Positions 15,958 to 28,035 of a DNA stretch of 64,000 bases are shown in pieces. Below the pieces are notes generated by a model that was given only the letters and a program-made list of their open reading frames with translations, did not search any database and was not told the DNA's origin. Origin of the DNA: Diacronema lutheri (Eukaryota; Haptophyta; Pavlovophyceae; Pavlovales; Pavlovaceae). Location: the NCBI GenBank assembly GCA_019448385.1, contig JAGTXO010000030.1, positions 1 through 64,000 of the forward strand. The letters run 5' to 3'. Made by a program: the position numbers and the translations under genes. Positions within the stretch are counted from its first letter, which is position 1. Every line of letters begins with the position of its first letter.

Positions 15958-18900
15958 ACCATGAAGCTCGTAACGTGGCGAGCGAACGTGGCGTTGTCTG
16001 TGGCCTTCGTCATGATGTCGGCGTGGTTGAGCGAGGTGTGCACCTTGCTCACAACGATCCGACCCTTCTCCTGCGCGTCGCGCACGTAGTGGTACTTGAC
16101 CTCGACGTGCTTCGTGCGCCGGTGGTGCACCGGGTTGTTGACGAGATCGATCGTCCCCTGGTTGTCTTCAAAGATCTCCGTCGGCGACTCCGACGGATGG
16201 TGGAGGAAGTCGATGATGCTCCGGAGGTAATCGACTCGCGGCAGCACTCGCTCAATGCGACATACTCCGCCTCGCAGCTGCTGAGCGAGATCGTGCTCTG
16301 CAAGCCGCTGTGCCACGAGATCGGCGCGCCGTTGAAAAACACGATGTACCCGGTCGTGGACTTGCGCTGCACGGGGTCGTTGGCCCAGTCCGCGTCGGCG
16401 AACGCGCGCAGCGTCGCGCACTCGGCGTCCTCGTCGTACTTGAAGAGCAAGCCGAGCTGCTCGGTGCCGCGCAGGTACTGCAGCACGCGACGTGCGGCGC
16501 GCAGGTCGACGGCCCGCGGCCTCGACATCCGCCGCGCCAGCATGTTCACCGCGTGCGCAAGATCGGGCCGGCACGTCACCATCGCGAACATCAGCCCTCC
16601 CGTGATGGACTGGTACTTGAGCTTGTCCTCCGTCGAGAGCAGCTCGTCGTCGTCGTCGTCTGACGACACGAGCGATCGCGCCTCGACCTCCGGCGTCGGA
16701 GCCGGTTGTCCCGTCGTCGCCTCGAAGCGCTCGAGCAGCCCGGTGACGTACGGTCCGATGTGCATGTAAATGCCGTCCGACCACGTCTCAAAGATGGCGC
16801 CGAGGAACTTGTCGAGCCTCTCCGAAAGCTTGATCTCGTAGTGCGGCCGCAAGCTCGCGGCCAGCTCCTCGATCGCGCGCGCCGAGCGCGTCAGGTTGAG
16901 GAAGATGAGATCGTCCACGAACCCTCCTGCGATGAGGTACTCGCCCGGTGCCGTCTCCTTGACGTAGATGCACGGAGCGGACGGCGCCTCGGCGAAGCCG
17001 AGCGCAAGCAGCGACGATCGGTGCAGCCGATGCCACGCGCGCCCCGACTGCCGAAGGCCTGGGTGCGCCTTGAGACTCCGCCCGACCACCTTGAAGCCGG
17101 ACGGCGCGACCGTCTTGGTCACGTAGCCTTGGGGCAAACTGTGCAGCGGCCGCTCGTCCTCGTTGAGCGACGAGTTGAGGTACGCGTCCTTGACGTCGTC
17201 CTTGGTGACGACGACGAACGAGCCGATGGTCGCGTCCTCGAAGCGCTGCGCCTTGCCCGTCTGCATCTTGGCCCCGAGCGCGATGAGCAGACGAACTTGC
17301 TCGGGCCGGATCGTCGGCGAGAAGACCTCCTGGAAGTCCACGCCGGGCCTCTGGTAGTTGCCCAACAGGACCGAGCGCGCCTTGAAGCGCTCGACCTTGC
17401 CGTCCGAGCCGACCTTGATGGAAAAGACCCACTGGCTCGGGAGCGCCCACGTGCCGAGCGGCACGAGCACCTCCTCGAAGGTGCCGAGCTGCTCATGCCC
17501 GGCGAGGTGCTCCTGGACGGCGGCTTGCCACTGCTCGGCCTGCTGCGAGCGCATCGCCTGCTTGCAGTTCTTCGGGATGACGACGTCCTGCGCCTTCCAG
17601 ACAGCGAGGCAGGTCGCAGCCAGAACGCGAGGGAACAGCTGCGGGTTGGACCGAGAAGTGCGATCACGGCGGTCCACGTCGTGCGACAGGTCGAGCTGCT
17701 GCTGCGACTCGTCCAGCACGTCATAGTTGGCGCCCGACTCGTCGCCCGACACGTCCTCGTGCGGCTTCGCGATCGGACTGAGCACGGGGTATGCAACGCC
17801 CGCCTCGTCGCGCGGCATCGCGTGACCACGTTGGGGTGAGGTCACGTCCGCGCCCTGCGCGTGACCATCAGGTGAGGCCACGCCCTCGTCGTCGTCCGCG
17901 CCGATCAGGCCGGAAGGCGACTCGCACGGCAGCTCGCGCGTCGGCGAAGCCCCGTACCACGGCAGCTCGCGCGTCAGCGCAGCCGCACTCTCGGGCAGCG
18001 CGCACGTCGGCGCAGCCGCTCTCTCGGGCACCCCGCGCCTCGGCAAGGCCCCGAACCACGGCAGCCCGAGCATCGGCGCAGCCGCAATCCCCGGTAGCTC
18101 GCGCGTCGGCGCAGCTCCGGTGCTCAGCGACGGCCTCTCGGACGCGGCGAAGCCGACGTCCTCACCCTCGCTCGCACTGTCGGGCGTGTCAGCCCTGTCG
18201 TGCTCCTCGTGCGATGGCCTCTCGGAAGCGTGGAAGTCGACGTCCTCATCCTCGCTCGCACTGTCGGGCGTGTCGGCCCAGTCGTGCTCCTCGTCGGCAG
18301 GCAGCCGCCCATCGGGCGCGTCCTCCGACAGCGAATCGTGCTCGCGCGTGCGGCGCGCAGCATCACTCGTCCCCACGCCAGCCCGCTGCGGTGCGGCGCC
18401 AAGCGATGAGAACCCCCCCTCGACGATGTCCGTCTCGTCGACCCACACATCGCGTGAGTACAAAAGGGTACCGTCGTCGCAGCGGACGACATGGCCGAGG
18501 ACGTAACGAAACACGCCCCGGACCTGCAGGCCGTGCCCACCCCAGAGGTAGACGCGCCCGAGCACGGCGCGCTGGCGGAGCGTGCCCAGCGCCTGCGCGC
18601 GAGCCCCGACCAGCAGCACCCGGCACCTGGCCCCGAAGGCCACGTGGTGCTTGAACGTAGCCGGCACGCCGAAGAAGAGCTCCTCCGGCGACCGCCACTC
18701 GTCGCGCTCACCCGCCTGCGCGATACGTTGCGAAGCGAGCCTGTTGCGCGATGCCACCGCATGCCACGCCGCAAAGTGCCAGTCGTGCATGGGTATGCCT
18801 CCCGCGCGCGTCATGAGCGCGCGCAGACGGACCTTGAGCGTACGAATCGCGCGCTCCGCCACCCCGTTCGAACTCGGCGAGTCGGGTGCGGAGGTAACCG

Positions 18901-19440
18901 TCGAAGAGAAGCCGAGCTGCGCCAGCGCGCGCTCGACCGATGCGGCCATCAACGAAGTGCCGCCATCCGTGTGGATGCTGCGTCGCCCGAACGACGAGCC
19001 GAGGATCCAGTGGGAGATGTGCATCGCCCCCGTCCCCAACAGCTGCGCGTACCACTGCAGCGCGAGCGCGATCTCGCTTTCCGCCAGCGTGCGCAGCGCG
19101 TACACTTGCCACCGACGCGAGTAGCCGTCGATCAGGATCATCCCGTAGCGGAAGCCGAGGCGACGGCCCTCCACGCTGAACGGAAGAACACCTCGAGAGA
19201 TCTCGAAGATGTCGACATGAGTGACGCCGCCCGGGTAGCTGCCCTTCGGCATCGCGTCCTTGAACGACTTGCGGACCATCGACGCCGCCGACTGCTCGTC
19301 GAGCGCGTCAATCTTGCGTCCCGTCATTCCGCCGGTGCGCTCCATCGTACGCAGCAGGAGGTTCTTGTCCGTTGTGCCCGCTCTGATCGACCATATCCGA
19401 AGCTCCTCCTCGCTTGGACCGGCCGGCGGGCGACTTAGTT
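15958..19440 (-). pseudogene. copia copy 2 pol (integrase, RT, RNase H; one frameshift)
   Basis: The open frame 16049-19345 carries, in order, the pre-integrase stretch, integrase (VTHVDIFEISRG, HTDGGTS, SSNGVAERAI), the acidic hinge with repeated EEHDWADTPDSAS units, RT (KDDVKDAYLNS, FVDD) and the start of RNase H (DADWANDPVQRKSTTGY). After SECCRE the frame is lost by a single missing base near 16236. The correct frame (VDYLRSIIDFLHH...) runs on to the stop at 15958. Otherwise the polyprotein is complete, and this copy preserves the integrase Asp missing from copy 1. Confidence 0.9.
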
Positions 19441-20192
19441 TCCCGTGGCTGCGCGACGGCGGCGACGAGCGCCGGGTTGGACTTGAGCGCGGTCGAAGCC
19501 GTCCGCGCGAGCCACACCTTCATCTTGGACTGCTCGTCCAGGCGCACGCGCGGGCCACCGACGGTGCGGAAGTCCGCGTAGTAGCCGTCGCGCGAGAACG
19601 TGATGAGAACGCCGGCGCCGGCGAGGCAGGCCGCGGAGAAGATCGGCATCACCACCTTGTCGGACGCCCAGGCTTTGAGCACGAGGAACGGCACTCCGCC
19701 GAACTTGGCGGCGCTGGCCTCGTCGAGGTGGAGCAGCAGATCTCCGGCGACCTTGACGATCTCCTGCGTGCCGTTACCGAAGACGAGCGTCTGCGGCTTG
19801 TCCAGCTTCTTGCAGTTGACGAGCAGCTCGGCCGGCACGATGTTCTTCTCCGAGCCTGAGTCGATGAGCGCGTCGCACGCGCCGCCGATGCGCGGCTTCG
19901 GGCGGTCCAGGCCGGTCGCAGCTGTCGTCGCCGCGAGGAGCGCGCCTCCGTCTGGCGCCGTCGCCGAGAGCGAGAAGATCGCGCCCAGCCGGGTCGCGCC
20001 GGACGTCGCCGCGCTGCTGTTGTCGACGACGATCGACTTCTTGCCCGCGTCCGACTTCGCGTTCGCGCCCGGCTGCTTGCCGCCGACCTTCTTCTCCTTC
20101 GAGTCGTCGATGTTCTTGATGATCAGGTTGTCGCCGCTGCGGCTTGACGTCATGCTAGACATCCCGATCAACTTGTCGACGCAGTAGCTCAC
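19308..20192 (-). CDS. copia copy 2 truncated Gag with retropepsin
   Basis: 294-residue frame beginning [13 protein letters not shown] in the LTR. After about 24 residues it jumps to [14 protein letters not shown], which in copy 1 lies just after the zinc knuckle, so about 1.2 kb coding for capsid and knuckle is deleted. The protease triplet ([10 protein letters not shown]) remains. The C-terminus differs from copy 1 because of an indel near 19440, which removes the gag stop and lets the frame run on. It cannot form a capsid alone. Confidence 0.8.
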   Translation of the reverse strand: MSYCVDKLIGMSSMTSSRSGDNLIIKNIDDSKEKKVGGKQPGANAKSDAGKKSIVVDNSSAATSGATRLGAIFSLSATAPDGGALLAATTAATGLDRPKPRIGGACDALIDSGSEKNIVPAELLVNCKKLDKPQTLVFGNGTQEIVKVAGDLLLHLDEASAAKFGGVPFLVLKAWASDKVVMPIFSAACLAGAGVLITFSRDGYYADFRTVGGPRVRLDEQSKMKVWLARTASTALKSNPALVAAVAQPRETKSPAGRSKRGGASDMVDQSGHNGQEPPAAYDGAHRRNDGTQD

Positions 20193-21164: not shown

Positions 21165-21635
21165 ATGGCGGGGCACGGCAAGCCGCCCGAGGGGCTCGAG
21201 TGTATGGTGACGTACGACGAGATCGACGAGAGCAACTACGTCGAGTACCAAACGGCGCCGTCCGGAAAGTGGCACGCGGCCAAGATCTCCGAGGACGTCG
21301 TGCGCCGCTTCCTCGACACGCAGATGGGCGAGTACGAGGAGCACCTGCGCACATCCGACTGCGCCGCGACGACGCGCCGCCTCCTCGCGGCCGGGCCGCC
21401 GATCTGGATGCAGGAGAAGTCGGGCAAAGCGATGGCCATCCCGGAGGACGACACGCACATCGCAGCGCTCTGGTTCGCCTCGGATGGCGCCGAAAGGCCG
21501 GCCAAGGTGAAGGGCTGCGTCGAGGGCGAGGCGCGCGCCGAGCTGATGGCGCGCAACGCCGCGCTATTTGGTGCCGCTCTGTCCGACAATCCGGCGGATG
21601 ACGGCCAGCCGAAAGCGGATGGCGTGTCCGAATAG
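21165..21635 (+). CDS. Conserved-looking protein of unknown function
   Basis: 156 residues, acidic, no membrane segment and no signal peptide. It starts at an ATG 46 bp from the divergent SET start and ends 48 bp before the convergent myosin stop, so it fills the space between two real genes. The composition (ECMVTYDEIDESNYVEYQTA, KWHAAKISEDVVRRFLDTQM) is clearly that of a real protein. I do not recognise a family. Most of its promoter must lie in or near the SET coding region, now next to a copia insertion. Confidence 0.75.
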   Translation: MAGHGKPPEGLECMVTYDEIDESNYVEYQTAPSGKWHAAKISEDVVRRFLDTQMGEYEEHLRTSDCAATTRRLLAAGPPIWMQEKSGKAMAIPEDDTHIAALWFASDGAERPAKVKGCVEGEARAELMARNAALFGAALSDNPADDGQPKADGVSE

Positions 21636-21683: not shown

Positions 21684-24600
21684 TCACGTTGTCCTGTGCA
21701 GGAGCTTGTCTTTGAGCGAGAGCGCGGTGCGGAGGATGGGCGGCGCGGGGCTGCAAAGCAGCTTGTCGTCGAATACGGCGACCGCGATGGCAAACGCCTG
21801 CAGCGCCGAGTAGGGCCGCTTGTAGTCCACGTTGAAGCGGTCGGCGCCAACCTTGCCTGTCGCCGCATGGCGCGCCGGCACGTGAGCGCGTCGCGCGCGC
21901 GGGCGCGGGCGGGCGCGCGGGCGCTGCGCGCGGCGGGCACCGAGCTGAAACTTGATGTCGGGCGAATTCTGGCTCTCGACGAGCTGGATGTTCTTGACGG
22001 ACGGCTCGGTCGCACGCCCGTTGTACTCGAGCGTGTACGACTGCAGCTGCTCGTTCCACACGGGCAGCTGCGCGCGCGCGCGCCGCGACGCGCGCGCGTG
22101 AGATGCCCGCGAGCGCGGCGTGCGGCGCGCAGCGCGCGGCGCGCGCGCGCTCGGCGCGTGGCGCGCCTTGTTGCTCATCACGACGAGGCCCGCCTTGCGC
22201 CCCGCCTTGAGCCGCTCGGAAAGCGTCTCCTCCTTGACGCGCGGCCGCACGACGATGCGCCCGCCCTCCTCGCGCTCGGCGGGCAGCGCGGCGACGAGCT
22301 GCGTTGGCCCGCCCGAGCCGAAGATCGAGCGCTCGAACGCGATGGACAGCAGCTCGGCGCGCAGCTCGTCGCCGTCGTCGTCGTCGTCGTCCCTGTCGCG
22401 TCCCTCGCCGCCGCCGCCGCCCTCGCCACCGGCGGCGGCGGCGGCGGCGGCGGCGGCCGCCGCCGCTTCCGACGTGCTCCGGCGCGCCCTGCGCCCCGCG
22501 CCTGCCGCCTTTGCGCGCTCCACCTTGTCCGCCTTCTTGGGCGAGAGGCCCGGCGTGTACAGCGTCCACGACAGCCCGCCCACGTCGGTCGCCTTCAGCT
22601 TTCCCAAATAGCCCGCGGAGCCCACGTCGGCCGCGCCCTTGTCGGTCGAGATGCGGAAGAGCGACGTACGCGCCGCCTTCATCTTCTTCGCCGACAGGCA
22701 GTAGAGCGCGTGGTAGGGCGGCAGCTCGAGGTACAGGTCGTACCGCACGCCCAGCCGGTCGTGCGCGCGCTCGACGTAGCACTGCACCATCGCGAAGCGG
22801 CCGGCGGGCTCGCACAGCACGCGCGCGAGCGGCGCCGATCCAAAGGGCGACATGGGCAGCGGCAGCTGCGACCCGCGCACCGCGCCGCCGCCGTCGCGAG
22901 CGTGCTGCGCGTGTGCGGGCATCGTCGGGTCGACGACGAGCCGCGCCTGCAGCTGCGGCGGCAGCGGCGTTGGCCCACCGCGCGCGTCCGCGCCACCACC
23001 GCCGCCGCCGCCGGGCACGGCGGGCAAGTTGTCGAGCGCAAAGGCCTCGGCCATCTCCTCGGTGGTCTGGTAGTAGCCCGCCTGCGTGTAGTAATCAAAC
23101 TCGGTGCGCTTCCGGCTCGGACCGTCGACGCGCCCGGACGCGGCCGCGCCGGGCGTCCAGTGGGCCTTGCCCCCCTGGCCGCGGTGCTGCACGAGCATCT
23201 GCCGGTAGTACTCGTCGAGCGGGTGCTCGCGCAGCGTCTGGCCCGTCACGTCGTTGACGTAGTAGAGGCGGCCGCGCATGTCGACGCTCTCGGCCCACGG
23301 CTCCGGCACGGCGGCGAAGAGCGCCTCCTTGGCGATCCACAGCAAGCCCGCGTCCACCTTGTCCTCGGGGTCCATCCCCAGGTAGCGCGCGTAGTCGAGC
23401 ACGCCGGGGTCGAGCTCGTCCTCCGTCGAGCGCTGCGGCGTGCCGAGCTGTGGCGGCGCGCTCGGCCGTGGCAGCGAGACGCCGTCGGTGCCGACGCCGC
23501 CATCGTCGTCGCCCACGTCCACGTCGTCCGCGCGGATCACGTGCTGCGCGGCGGGCGGCCGGACTGGCGCGCGCGTGTCGAGGACGCCGTACGTCTTCGA
23601 GTGGCCGACGCCGCGCCGCGCCGCGGCGGCCGCGCCGCCGTCGGCGTCGGCGCCGGCCGCGCCGGGCGCGGCGGCGCCCTGCCGCAGGCCGGGCGCCTTG
23701 CGCAGCTTGGCGCGCGCGGCCGCCAGCTCCGACGTCGGGTTGCGCAGCTGGTCAAGCTCGTCGTACTTGGACTGGCGCGCCGCGGCGGCCGCCGCCTCGG
23801 CGGTCGCGTCGGCGTCGGCACCGAGCGGCGCCGCGTCGACGGCGGCCGACGCGGCCTCGGCCGCGGCGCGCTCGGCGAGCGCGCGCGCCTCCGCCTCGCC
23901 GCGCGCCGCCACCTTGCGCGCGTGCTGCGCCTCGGCCGCCACCGCCGCCGCCGTGCGCGCGAGGGACTGGCGATGGCGGACCGCGAGCATCCGCCGACCG
24001 GCCGCCTGCAGCGCGGTCGCGTACGCGAGGGTCTTGCGCCGGCGCGCCTCGCGCAGGAGGCCAAAGGCACCGGCTTTGAAAAAGGCCTTGCGATGGCCGA
24101 GCTCGTAGTGCGTGCCGCGCGCGAGCCCCGCCGCCGCGAAGACGCGCGTGCACACGGCGCGCGCGGCCGCGTCGTCGGCGGCGAGGTTGTCCGGCAGCGG
24201 CTGCGGCGGGATGAGCATAGCGAACTGCGGCGCGAGCTCGGCGCAGAGGAGGCGGTCGGGATAGCCTGAGCGCGTGATCGAGATCGCCTCGAGCACGCCG
24301 CACGCGGCGAGCTGCTCGAGCACGTGCGCGCGCGCGATCTCGCCCGGTCGCATCGCCGGGTTGGGCTTGAGACAGCGCACGAACGTGCACTTGGACGTGC
24401 ACAGCTGGCGGACGAGCGCGTCGAGCTGGAGGTAAAACTTGGAGAGCACGCCCTTAAACCCCTTCCCGCCCTTCTCGCCGCTCGCCGAAAGCAGCGCGGC
24501 GACGAGCGGCCGCTTCGACTCGGCGAGCGCGACGGCGAGGTCCTCGTGCAGCGGGTCCTTGTTCTTGTGCAAGAAGCCGCCCACCTCGTACGTCACGTCG

Positions 24601-26183
24601 CCGGCGTAGTGGCGCAGCGTGAACGCGCGCTTCGCCGTCGCGCCCTTGCCGCCGCGCTGCTTGCCCAGTGCGGGCGAGGCGTGCAGCTTCTCCTCGACCG
24701 CGTCGGCGAAGGTGTCGTCGGTGGCCTTTGCGAAGGAGCACGTGTCCTGCAGCAGCCACACCAGGCCGGCGGGGCGCGCCTCGATCGCCTCGATCACCGC
24801 CTGGTTGTCAGTGAACGGCAGGTCCGCCGGCACGTGCACGCCCTCCCTCTCGTAGTCCTGCAGCGCCGCCTTGAAGACGACGGCGTTGAAGTGCGCCTGC
24901 AGCTTCTCATTTGCAAAGTTGATGCACAGCTGCTCGAGGGAGTTGGTGCCAAAGTTCTCGAAGCCAAAGATGTCGAGCACGCCGAAGAAGGCGGACGACG
25001 CGCCCACCCGCTCCTCCTCCTTCGTCTTCTTCCCGCCGCCGAGCGACGAGTTGACGCGCTTGACGAGCGCGTCGAAGAGGCCGGCGTACAGGCCCTTGGC
25101 GAGCGCGTCGCGCGCCGACTCCGCCTCGCCGACGGACAAGCGCTTGGTCACAAACTCGGCGCCCGCGCGCAGCCGGCGCGTGCACATGCCCGCCTCGATG
25201 TCCGCCGCGTTGCACGCCAGCGCGCCCGCCGCCGCGTCGAGCGCCTGCCGTGCGCGCTCGCCGTCGACGACGGCGCCGGGCTGCGCGTCCGCGCCCGTGG
25301 GCTCGGCGTGCACGAACCGTACGTTGCCCAGCAGGAGGAGCGCGCAGAGGAGCTCGAGGACGAGCGCAACGTCCGCCTCGCCTAGACCCACCGCCTTGAG
25401 CGCGCCGCGCGTCTCATCGAACGCCGCGCGGTCGTCGACGCCGTCGATCGCGTGGACGGCGCCGGGCGCACTCAAAAACCCAAACGCGCCCGGCGCGGGC
25501 GCTGGCCCGCCGAGCGCGCGCTGCAGCTCGGCGCGGACGGAGGCGGCGCCGCCGGCGAGAAGCTGGTAGAAGACGTGGAAGTTGCGCTCGCCCGGCCCCG
25601 GTGCGGCCACGCGGCTCTTCTCGAGCAGGTACGTGTCGAGCGTGCAGCCGGTGATCGCGCCCGCGCCCGAGCACTGCAGCCGCACAAACTTGCCGAAGCG
25701 GCTCGAGTTGTCGTTGCGCAGCGTGCGGCAGTTGCCCAACGCCTCGAGGATCGGGTTGGTCGCGAGCAGCTTCGCCTCGAGGGCCGCACCCACGCCCGCG
25801 CCGCCCGCGTCGCCCTTGCCGAGCGCGTGCGCCGACGCCCACGAGACCATCCGCACAATGTGTTTGGTCGTCTCCGTCTTGCCCGCGCCCGACTCGCCCG
25901 AGACGACGATGGATTGGTTCATGCGCTCGTCGACCATCTCGGTATACGCCTCGTGCGCCACGCGGTACACGTGCGGCGGCACGTCCGTGCGCGCGCGCGC
26001 CTCGCGGTACCGCGCCGCGTGCGCCTCGCCGTAAATGGGCAGCGGCTTGAGCGGGTTGAGCGCGATGAGGATTGGGCCAATGTACGTGTACACGGCGTCC
26101 GCGGCGAAGCGCTCGGAGAGGATGCCGAGCAGCGCCTCCGCGTCCAGCCGGTCCACCGCCGTCAGGTCCGGCACGTCCGCCAT
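21684..26183 (-). CDS. Unconventional myosin heavy chain with WW-like and C-terminal Tubby domains
   Basis: Actin-based ATPase motor. The head has the P-loop GESGAGKT, switch I NDNSSRFGKF, switch II DIFGFENFGTNSLEQLCINF, a relay and converter region (FVRCLKPNPAMRPGE), and a short lever with one or two weak IQ-like helices (ATALQAAGRRMLAVRHRQSL). After an Ala-rich linker comes a WW-like segment (RGRLYYVNDVTGQTLREHP) and then a Tubby domain: ALYCLSAKKMKAARTSLFRI, YLGKLKATDVGGLSWTLYTP, VWNEQLQSYTLEYNGRATEP, RPYSALQAFAIAVAVFDDKL. I chose MADVPDLTAVDRL (26183) over an upstream ATG at 26237 because the extra 18 residues look like leader noise. Two stop-free inserts in the Tubby domain are probably introns (22068-22166 and 21857-21940). 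Tubby domains bind phosphoinositides, so it may move membranes or ciliary cargo. Confidence 0.93.
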   Translation of the reverse strand: MADVPDLTAVDRLDAEALLGILSERFAADAVYTYIGPILIALNPLKPLPIYGEAHAARYREARARTDVPPHVYRVAHEAYTEMVDERMNQSIVVSGESGAGKTETTKHIVRMVSWASAHALGKGDAGGAGVGAALEAKLLATNPILEALGNCRTLRNDNSSRFGKFVRLQCSGAGAITGCTLDTYLLEKSRVAAPGPGERNFHVFYQLLAGGAASVRAELQRALGGPAPAPGAFGFLSAPGAVHAIDGVDDRAAFDETRGALKAVGLGEADVALVLELLCALLLLGNVRFVHAEPTGADAQPGAVVDGERARQALDAAAGALACNAADIEAGMCTRRLRAGAEFVTKRLSVGEAESARDALAKGLYAGLFDALVKRVNSSLGGGKKTKEEERVGASSAFFGVLDIFGFENFGTNSLEQLCINFANEKLQAHFNAVVFKAALQDYEREGVHVPADLPFTDNQAVIEAIEARPAGLVWLLQDTCSFAKATDDTFADAVEEKLHASPALGKQRGGKGATAKRAFTLRHYAGDVTYEVGGFLHKNKDPLHEDLAVALAESKRPLVAALLSASGEKGGKGFKGVLSKFYLQLDALVRQLCTSKCTFVRCLKPNPAMRPGEIARAHVLEQLAACGVLEAISITRSGYPDRLLCAELAPQFAMLIPPQPLPDNLAADDAAARAVCTRVFAAAGLARGTHYELGHRKAFFKAGAFGLLREARRRKTLAYATALQAAGRRMLAVRHRQSLARTAAAVAAEAQHARKVAARGEAEARALAERAAAEAASAAVDAAPLGADADATAEAAAAAARQSKYDELDQLRNPTSELAAARAKLRKAPGLRQGAAAPGAAGADADGGAAAAARRGVGHSKTYGVLDTRAPVRPPAAQHVIRADDVDVGDDDGGVGTDGVSLPRPSAPPQLGTPQRSTEDELDPGVLDYARYLGMDPEDKVDAGLLWIAKEALFAAVPEPWAESVDMRGRLYYVNDVTGQTLREHPLDEYYRQMLVQHRGQGGKAHWTPGAAASGRVDGPSRKRTEFDYYTQAGYYQTTEEMAEAFALDNLPAVPGGGGGGGADARGGPTPLPPQLQARLVVDPTMPAHAQHARDGGGAVRGSQLPLPMSPFGSAPLARVLCEPAGRFAMVQCYVERAHDRLGVRYDLYLELPPYHALYCLSAKKMKAARTSLFRISTDKGAADVGSAGYLGKLKATDVGGLSWTLYTPGLSPKKADKVERAKAAGAGRRARRSTSEAAAAAAAAAAAAGGEGGGGGEGRDRDDDDDDGDELRAELLSIAFERSIFGSGGPTQLVAALPAEREEGGRIVVRPRVKEETLSERLKAGRKAGLVVMSNKARHAPSARAPRAARRTPRSRASHARASRRARAQLPVWNEQLQSYTLEYNGRATEPSVKNIQLVESQNSPDIKFQLGARRAQRPRARPRPRARRAHVPARHAATGKVGADRFNVDYKRPYSALQAFAIAVAVFDDKLLCSPAPPILRTALSLKDKLLHRTT
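21857..21940 (-). other. Probable intron in the myosin Tubby domain (84 bp)
   Basis: Between QLG and KVGADRF the ORF contains 28 Arg/Ala/Pro-rich residues not expected in a Tubby fold. On the minus strand the insert starts GTGCCC, contains GCTCACG as a branch-like site and ends GACAG. Removing it keeps the frame (84 = 3 x 28) and restores QLGKVG, as in other Tubby proteins. Confidence 0.7.
22068..22166 (-). other. Probable GC-AG intron in the myosin Tubby domain (99 bp)
   Basis: 33 low-complexity residues separate VVMSNK from LPVWNEQ, which are adjacent in Tubby proteins. The insert runs AAG|GCGCGC...GCGCAG|CTG on the minus strand, a GC-AG intron, with CTCACG inside. Its length is a multiple of three without a stop, so it is invisible to ORF calling. 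Confidence 0.6.
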
Positions 26184-26239
26184 AGCGAGCCGCCGCGCGG
26201 CCCACCGCGGCAGAGCTGCTGGCGGCTTAAATCGCAACA

Positions 26240-26802: not shown

Positions 26803-28035
26803 GTAAGCGCCGTTAGTATATACTAACGACGCTTCCGACGGGTCAGGAAGTGCGGGGTCAGGAAGTGCGCAGCGCCAGGCGAAGCAGGCCCAAAGGCCCA
26901 CACGCGCCTAGCCACCGCGCGCCGCCGCCCGCGCGCCGCCGCACCGGTGGCCGCCGTCAACCACACCACCGGCCGACCCGCACGCGCACGCCGAGGCCCG
27001 AAGATCGTCGACGACGACCGCCACCCCCGAGCCGCCGCCTGCCACGTCGCCAAGCCGCCCGCCGCCGCTGCAGAGCGCGACGCCCGCCGCCAGCGAGCCG
27101 CCGCCCTCCCCGCCGCGTCGCAGCCCCCTGCCACCGCCGCGAAGCGCACCGCCACCCGCCGCCAGCGTGGCAAGCGCCGCGATGCTGGCCGCGTGGCCGC
27201 GCACGCGCGCCCCGCCGCCCCCAAACCCACCGACCGGGGCGAAATGTGTGTGTTTCGTGGTGCCGGCGCAGTCGATGGGCAGGGGCGGCGGGGCGCGCGG
27301 AGCGCGGCCATCAGAGCGCGAGGGCGCAGCCGTCGCAAGCGAAGGTTTCGTCGTAGAGAAGGTCACGCCGCCGTCGCTCGTGCGGCCGTGCGCGCGCGCC
27401 CCGCCACCCCCAAACCCACCGACCGGGGCGAAGAGTACGTTGTTCGCGGTGCCGGCGCAGTCGATGGGCAGGGGCGGCGGGGCGCGCGGAGCGCGGCCAG
27501 CAGAGCGCGAGGGCGCAGCCGTCGCAAGCGAAGGTTTCGTCGTAGAGAAGGCCACGCCGCCGTCGCTCGTGCGGCCGTGCGCGCGCGCCCCGCCACCTCC
27601 AAACCCACCGACCGGGGCGAAAAGTACGTTGTTCGCGGTGCCGGCGCAGTCGATGGGCAGGGGCGGCGGGGCGCGCGGAGCGCGGCCAGCAGAGCGCGAG
27701 GGCGCAGCCGTCGCAAGCAAAGGTTTCGTCGTAGAGAAGGCCACGCCGCCGTCGCTCGTGCGGCCGTGCGCGCGCGCCCCGCCACCCCCAAACCCACCGA
27801 CCGGGGCGAAGAGTACGTTGTTCGCGGTGCCGGCGCAGTCGATGGGCAGGGGCGGCGGGGCGCGCGGAGCGCGGCCAGCAGAGCGCGAGGGCGCAGCCTG
27901 GATGGCAAAGGCAGGCGTCGTCAAGGCAGCCGGCGTTTCGAAGCTGCCGGCCGGCACGGCCGCGCCGGCGCGCGCCGCGCCGACGGGGACCACGGCGCCT
28001 CGCAGCTGTTCAAAAATGCGTTAGTATATGAACAG
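26803..28035 (-). mobile_element. Non-autonomous element related to the RT element, with 189-bp repeats
   Basis: The left end is a palindrome (26803-26836: GTAAGCGCCGTTAGTATATA, then its complement) also found at the 3' end of the RT element at 40315. The text after it (CACGCGCCTAGCCACC) matches the RT element too (CACACGCCTAGCCACC, about 40523). The right end carries GCGTTAGTATATG (28019), like the GGTTAGTATATATT at the 5' end of the RT element (44789). Between them are four 189-bp tandem units and no RT. I read it as a short, passively moved relative. Confidence 0.65.
27180..27930. repeat. 189-bp tandem repeat, locus A (about 4 units)
   Basis: CCAAACCCACCGACCGGGGC starts at 27221, 27410, 27599 and 27788, exactly 189 bp apart. 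The units are nearly identical, with changes such as TTGTTCGCGG against TGTTTCGTGG. Related units in the opposite orientation occur at 13.4-13.75 kb. Confidence 0.95.

Follow-up and report, generated by a model that had tools for sequence, protein, structure and literature searches.

Myosin XXI of heterokonts and haptophytes carries diverse tails, which include IQ, WW, PX and Tub domains (Sebe-Pedros et al. 2014, PMC3942036). A motor with a WW and Tub tail is, in outline, already in print. The passage on this class names the WW domain only as PF00397, without kinship to CEP164, and lists no tail that ends in WD40, PDZ, EF-hand or SH3. Myosin IV, in the same source, is another myosin with a WW domain. 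Odronitz and Kollmar (2007, PMC2375034) use the name XXI for another class, one of arthropods, and neither "Tub domain" nor "tubby" occurs in the accessible text of their paper. A motor-Tub fusion is likewise absent from the accessible part of PMC4501334. In the classification of Kollmar and Muhlhausen (2017, PMC5583752), 287 myosins, including those of Emiliania and Prymnesium, were left as orphans.

The two tail modules are known from other proteins. The WW domain of CEP164 sits in a three-helix bundle and needs this bundle to fold; its residues Y73 and W84 form the lining of the TTBK2 groove, and when they were mutated the binding of this kinase, which CEP164 recruits at the distal appendages, fell strongly (PMC8752127). 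In tubby, the substitution R332H lowers the affinity for PI(4,5)P2 and the double substitution K330A/R332A lowers it further (PMC10445746).

The window, that is the whole stretch of 64,000 nucleotides of Diacronema lutheri DNA that was analysed, contains a minus-strand open frame of 1517 codons (26237..21684 in its ORF listing). The TTG start of this frame is mechanical; a plausible ATG comes first at 26183, which is also the boundary given in the sequence-only reading. That reading had placed a myosin motor, a WW-like segment and a Tubby domain in this one frame. The arrangement was confirmed with Pfam, which matched the head at 599.1 bits (E 1.3e-179, profile positions 2-679 of 679) and Tub at 133.2 bits (E 1.7e-38, positions 2-255 of 256), scores far above chance, and the head motifs GESGAGKT, NDNSSRFGK and DIFGFE are present. 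The Tubby blocks quoted in the same reading do share the frame, but two introns, both inside the Tubby domain, put them on exons 2 and 3. Removal of the introns yields SNKLPVWNEQLQSYTLEYNGR and KFQLGKVGADRFNVDYKRP, and the alignment of both to tubby is then uninterrupted. Both intron lengths are multiples of three, which is why the frame had appeared unbroken; if intron 1 stayed unspliced, it would add 33 residues in frame. GC simple-repeat tracts overlap both introns. The non-standard donor of intron 1, GCGCGC, is one base off GTGCGC, which is frequent among the better-scoring GT donors at candidate junctions of the genome's myosin heads. In 27 such junctions GT was preferred in 14 and GC in 8, with 5 ties, a noisy count in that some of the pairs need not be real introns.

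Features of the myosin gene in the window and of two further myosins
Feature	Position	Strand	Basis or remark
Myosin gene, ATG to stop	21684..26183	minus	1438 residues once two introns are removed
Myosin motor head	24075..26171	minus	Pfam PF00063; P-loop, switch I, switch II; Glu at TEDS site
Neck and low-complexity linker	23397..24044	minus	degenerate IQ-like stretch LQAAGRRMLAVR, by eye
CEP164-type unit, helices flanking WW	23175..23396	minus	CEP164 7nwj match, AlphaFold2, Foldseek
Linker, WW to Tubby	22815..23174	minus	position by difference
Tubby domain, two introns within	21768..22814	minus	Pfam PF01167, mouse tubby 1c8z
Intron 1, 99 bp, GC-AG	22166-22068	minus	Tubby part read against mouse tubby
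Intron 2, 84 bp, GT-AG	21940-21857	minus	Tubby part read against mouse tubby
Motor, CEP164-type WW, Tub and WD40 in two further myosins (contigs 85, 36)	L035 4318-7275; L034 3080-7181		

Several other elements flank the gene. A Copia-type retrotransposon on the minus strand (16049-20192, RVT_2 98.5 bits) lies about 1.5 kb off its 3' end, and the frame upstream of RVT_2 has a gag-like look without a Pfam match. A 156-codon frame on the plus strand (21165-21635), also without a Pfam match, is convergent with the myosin gene and ends 49 bp from the myosin stop. Upstream of the gene, a 189-bp tandem repeat of 3.7 copies with 96% matches (27195-27898) is open on both strands.

The window is about 72% GC and has many long open frames on either strand, and openness of the frame alone is for that reason little proof of a single protein. 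The stronger evidence is the domain content together with a 986-codon frame of a sister gene on contig 36, which runs from the head end through WW and Tub into the first WD40 repeats (Tub 55.0, WW 31.3 and WD40 36.2 bits). This frame aligns with that of a further myosin on contig 85 as one frame over 672 columns with 51% identity, a piece that spans the head end, neck, WW and Tub; a second piece runs from the Tub end into WD40. The other 18 of the 20 aligned pieces were listed as weaker and lie mostly between wrong frames. Differences in the main piece number 217, 200 and 264 at the three codon positions, a modest excess at the third. Nothing speaks more strongly for head, WW and Tub as parts of one protein than this conservation of the two paralogues in one frame. 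Chance long frames in such GC-rich DNA could still have joined two adjacent genes, one for a myosin and one for a WW-Tub protein, but this is highly improbable: the frame has no stop from 24.0 to 22.8 kb, the unit containing the WW domain stands behind a head in eight genes of the genome, in seven of them within one open frame, and the order head-WW-Tub recurs on contigs 85 and 36. The two-gene arrangement was rejected on this paralogue order and the one-frame conservation. Head, WW and Tubby at 26183..21684 are most likely one gene, which had been correctly located.

The head has the features of the myosin superfamily, being complete with intact P-loop, switch I and switch II, and Dictyostelium myosin II (E 4e-128) is its closest PDB match among the best 60 of 150. 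The P-loop appears as GESGAGAT on contigs 85 and 36, where it is split by an intron and the exon joins are approximate; the next exon on contig 85 reads AGKT at this place. The TEDS site, which we take to be the residue 16 before DALAK, is Glu within [ATV]G[AR]E in all eight myosins of the genome that carry the CEP164-type WW. This pattern occupies the same columns in none of the 16 other heads, one of which has GAE a column later. No IQ motif was matched in the window myosin by Pfam at E<=1 or by a pattern scan. By eye, the neck stretch LQAAGRRMLAVR is one residue off the IQ consensus. Because no IQ motif passes Pfam, the light chains and the lever arm of this myosin are uncertain. MyTH4 is also absent by Pfam, which sets the protein apart from myosin IV, where WW and MyTH4 occur together. 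The tail, with WW and Tub, agrees with that of myosin XXI (WW and/or Tub), and so does the haptophyte host, a likeness drawn from tails, heads having been compared only within the genome.

The segment called "WW-like" in the sequence-only reading does contain a WW domain, but by its PDB and Foldseek matches it is a complete CEP164-type unit of helical bundle and WW. Pfam gives the WW domain 23.5 bits, below the cut-off of 26.9. A query of 74 residues matched, over its residues 1-73, the N-terminal domain of CEP164 in the PDB (7nwj) at E 2.3e-14; the best other WW protein reached 2.9e-7, with the WW part only covered in the alignments shown. The AlphaFold2 model of the unit, built from 11 sequences of this genome, has a mean pLDDT of 82.8 and places helices 17-25, 39-47 and 81-96 around the WW strands. 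All five Foldseek matches of this model at E<=0.001 are CEP164 N-terminal domains, with query TM of 0.55-0.67, and the next best match stands at 0.017. Four of the five superpose with a whole-length rmsd of 6 to 17 A and one with 1.3 A over 76 columns, a spread that speaks against a fixed hinge between bundle and WW. A generic WW domain was rejected on these PDB and Foldseek matches, and the window WW is, on sequence and predicted structure, a CEP164-type unit with the WW inserted in a three-helix bundle. In a search of viral contigs for the unit, 35 pattern matches yielded no relatives.

The window unit resembles the CEP164 N-terminal domain (7nwj, 7o06, 7o0s, 7o3b) in this architecture and in the equivalents of W62, H86 and P87, three fold residues that are kept in all eight myosin units. 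It differs in being internal to a myosin and not N-terminal, and in having Arg, Val and Asp in place of CEP164 W84, F75 and F77. The W84 column reads R, R, R, P, R, L, L and L in the eight myosins, with no Trp; two of three non-myosin copies (contigs 4 and 89) have Trp and the third, on contig 93, has Tyr. The myosin units have kept the scaffold and lost the known ligand site, and with Arg at the W84 place the window unit belongs to the CEP164 fold family and is not the functional equivalent of CEP164. A genome search gave 20 matches to the unit, including nine weaker ones at E 8e-4 to 0.5, and some lie in non-myosin proteins, for example on contigs 89 and 93. On contig 4 (L044 1495-1701, minus strand) the unit stands at the N-terminus of a non-myosin protein and the ligand Trp is kept; judged by eye, this protein is likely the true CEP164. 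No published statement of CEP164 kinship for a myosin WW domain was found in a literature search that ran mostly over text outside subscription journals, figures and supplements.

The Tubby domain of the window matches mouse tubby 1c8z at E 1.5e-38 and has the barrel with C-terminal helix of the Tubby family by Pfam and Foldseek; all seven Foldseek matches at E<=0.001 are tubby or TULP1, obtained with a model that includes both introns and has a mean pLDDT of only 59.5. Positions K330 and R332 were placed by 1c8z numbering, tubby being taken as a protein of 505 residues. The tubby stretch GKLRSN corresponds to GKLKAT in the window, GRLRTN on contig 85 and GRMRTN on contig 36, so that the two positions are K/K in the window and R/R in both sister genes. 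The place of N310, which presumably has a role in the pocket, is taken by Leu in the window. Lys for R332 and Leu at the N310 place could make the lipid affinity weaker or altered. The charge of the PI(4,5)P2 pocket is kept, and binding of the lipid may be expected from it. A direct link from phosphoinositide to actin, as suggested in the sequence-only reading, is plausible with both basic pocket positions occupied by Lys. In its fold, C-terminal helix and basic pocket residues the domain is like those of Tubby and TULP1-3, from which it differs in the fusion to a motor, in Lys for R332, in a low-complexity insert and in an extension of 22 residues past the usual end. The Tub domains on contigs 85 and 36 are without the PxWN...GR segment, and their Pfam matches stop at profile position 178 of 256. 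The genome also has Tub in other contexts (L002, L004, L005), with the partners judged by eye: after a RING-like cysteine segment on contig 18, after a PH/F-box-like stretch on contig 82, and after ankyrin-like repeats on contig 36.

A genome search with Myosin_head gave at least 57 pieces, which were grouped as 24 genes. Eight of these have the CEP164-type unit downstream of the head on the same strand: those on contigs 76 (the window), 85, 36, 25, 86, 98, 48 and 6. The gene on contig 98 is the one in which the link of head and unit consists of their order and about 1.9 kb across introns. The WW domain is above the Pfam cut-off in three of the eight (contigs 36, 85 and 86). What follows the unit varies. 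The gene in the window ends in Tub. On contig 85 Tub (53.8 bits) is followed by WD40 (91.5 bits) in another frame; past the head this gene has an Arg/Glu-rich stretch that looks, by eye, like a long helix. The ending is PDZ_6 on contig 25 (54.7 bits, in a frame that differs from that of WW), an EF-hand pair on contig 86 (23.8 bits, which misses the cut-off of 30) and SH3 on contig 48 (42.5 bits).

Pfam matched nothing past the WW in the genes on contigs 6 and 98. Their tail alignment, compared with the alignment of the genome's Tub domains, scored 40.2 (hhalign probability 76%, P 2.3e-5), with 30 of 30 column shuffles at or below 21.7 and the reversed profile at 10.4. Against smaller Tub sets the scores were weaker, 31.5 (34%) and 28.8 (14%), and of the four rounds of an iterated search just one recovered each tail (E 0.0019 and 0.0036). 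On this weaker evidence the two tails (L049 minus strand, L042) seem to be a strongly diverged Tub-like domain. The joining of motor and Tubby in one protein is real, but behind the CEP164-type unit other endings occur besides Tub. As for the lineage-specific class that had been proposed, a related group of myosins is indicated in the genome, but a new myosin class is unsupported, WW and Tub tails having been published in the class XXI passage of PMC3942036. What goes beyond that passage is the CEP164-type unit, the loss of the ligand Trp in eight motors and the varied end modules.

A tree of the 24 heads (651 columns, this genome only, exon joins approximate) groups the eight WW myosins with the one on contig 69, which has a short tail and no unit, at 90/93. 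The eight alone form one side of a branch with 55/71, present in 60% of bootstrap trees. A single gain of the unit among myosins would be the simplest reading, which is not secured; the unit was not detected in 16 myosins, of which the tail read is that of contig 69. The Tub tree, which has 9 rows with exon joins again approximate and omits the Tub-like tails (contigs 6 and 98) as well as contig 93, gives no resolution, with the three myosin Tubs grouped in 14% of bootstrap trees. Two nearly identical heads in the head tree (contig 77, 103092-105114, and contig 78, 25060-27081; L027, L029, L012), with a branch of 0.001, may be a recent duplicate or an uncollapsed allele.

Based on the domain content, the protein is probably, as the likeliest of the readings considered, an actin motor that is active and has its Tubby domain as the anchor on PI(4,5)P2 membrane. 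Actin genes are present in the genome, the search being informative on presence only. With Glu at the TEDS site, the head would be an active motor that needs no TEDS phosphorylation. The Tubby domain would bind PI(4,5)P2 of the plasma or flagellar membrane via its basic pocket, and the combination would let the motor tether or drag PI(4,5)P2-rich membrane along actin. Having lost the ligand Trp, the CEP164-type unit might be a rigid connector or bind a different partner. In the set of eight genes the motor and the unit would be the constant part and the end module the one that differs; this module (Tub, Tub-WD40, Tub-like, PDZ, EF-hand or SH3) presumably sets the cargo or the site.

It is unlikely that Tubby and WW are purely protein scaffolds, with Tubby devoid of phosphoinositide binding. 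The Tub domains of the sister myosins are indeed strongly altered, two of them to the point of being missed by Pfam, but the window Tubby keeps two basic pocket residues and matches mouse tubby at E 1.5e-38. Possible, if doubtful, is a motor of the flagellar base, in which the unit would dock at sites on the basal body or the distal appendages while Tubby would handle ciliary membrane cargo in trafficking or docking. It is from ciliary proteins that the two tail modules are best known, TULP3 being a ciliary trafficking protein, and the likely CEP164 of contig 4 keeps its ligand Trp. Pavlova cells, which also have a short haptonema, swim with two flagella, as the accessible text of PMC8379373 describes. 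Against a place at the flagellar base stand the absence of the W84-equivalent Trp from all eight myosin copies, by which the docking mode of CEP164 has probably been lost, and the occurrence of the unit in other proteins, as on contigs 89 and 93. A ciliary location, to which the kinship of the domains points, would be an attractive extension of the membrane-anchored motor.

A wider proposal, distinctly doubtful at present, is that in haptophytes, and perhaps also in stramenopiles, a whole myosin class arose by capture of a CEP164-type unit, yielding flagellar-base actin motors whose end modules select the membrane or the partner. If true, it would give a direct link of an actin motor to basal-body and ciliary-membrane biology. 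For the family, a one-line entry in the myosin census becomes a structured group whose core can be tested. A Tubby end that binds lipid could let such a motor tie PI(4,5)P2 directly to actin force, and the eight motor units that have no ligand Trp raise the question of whether a part of the ciliary base was reused for actin transport.
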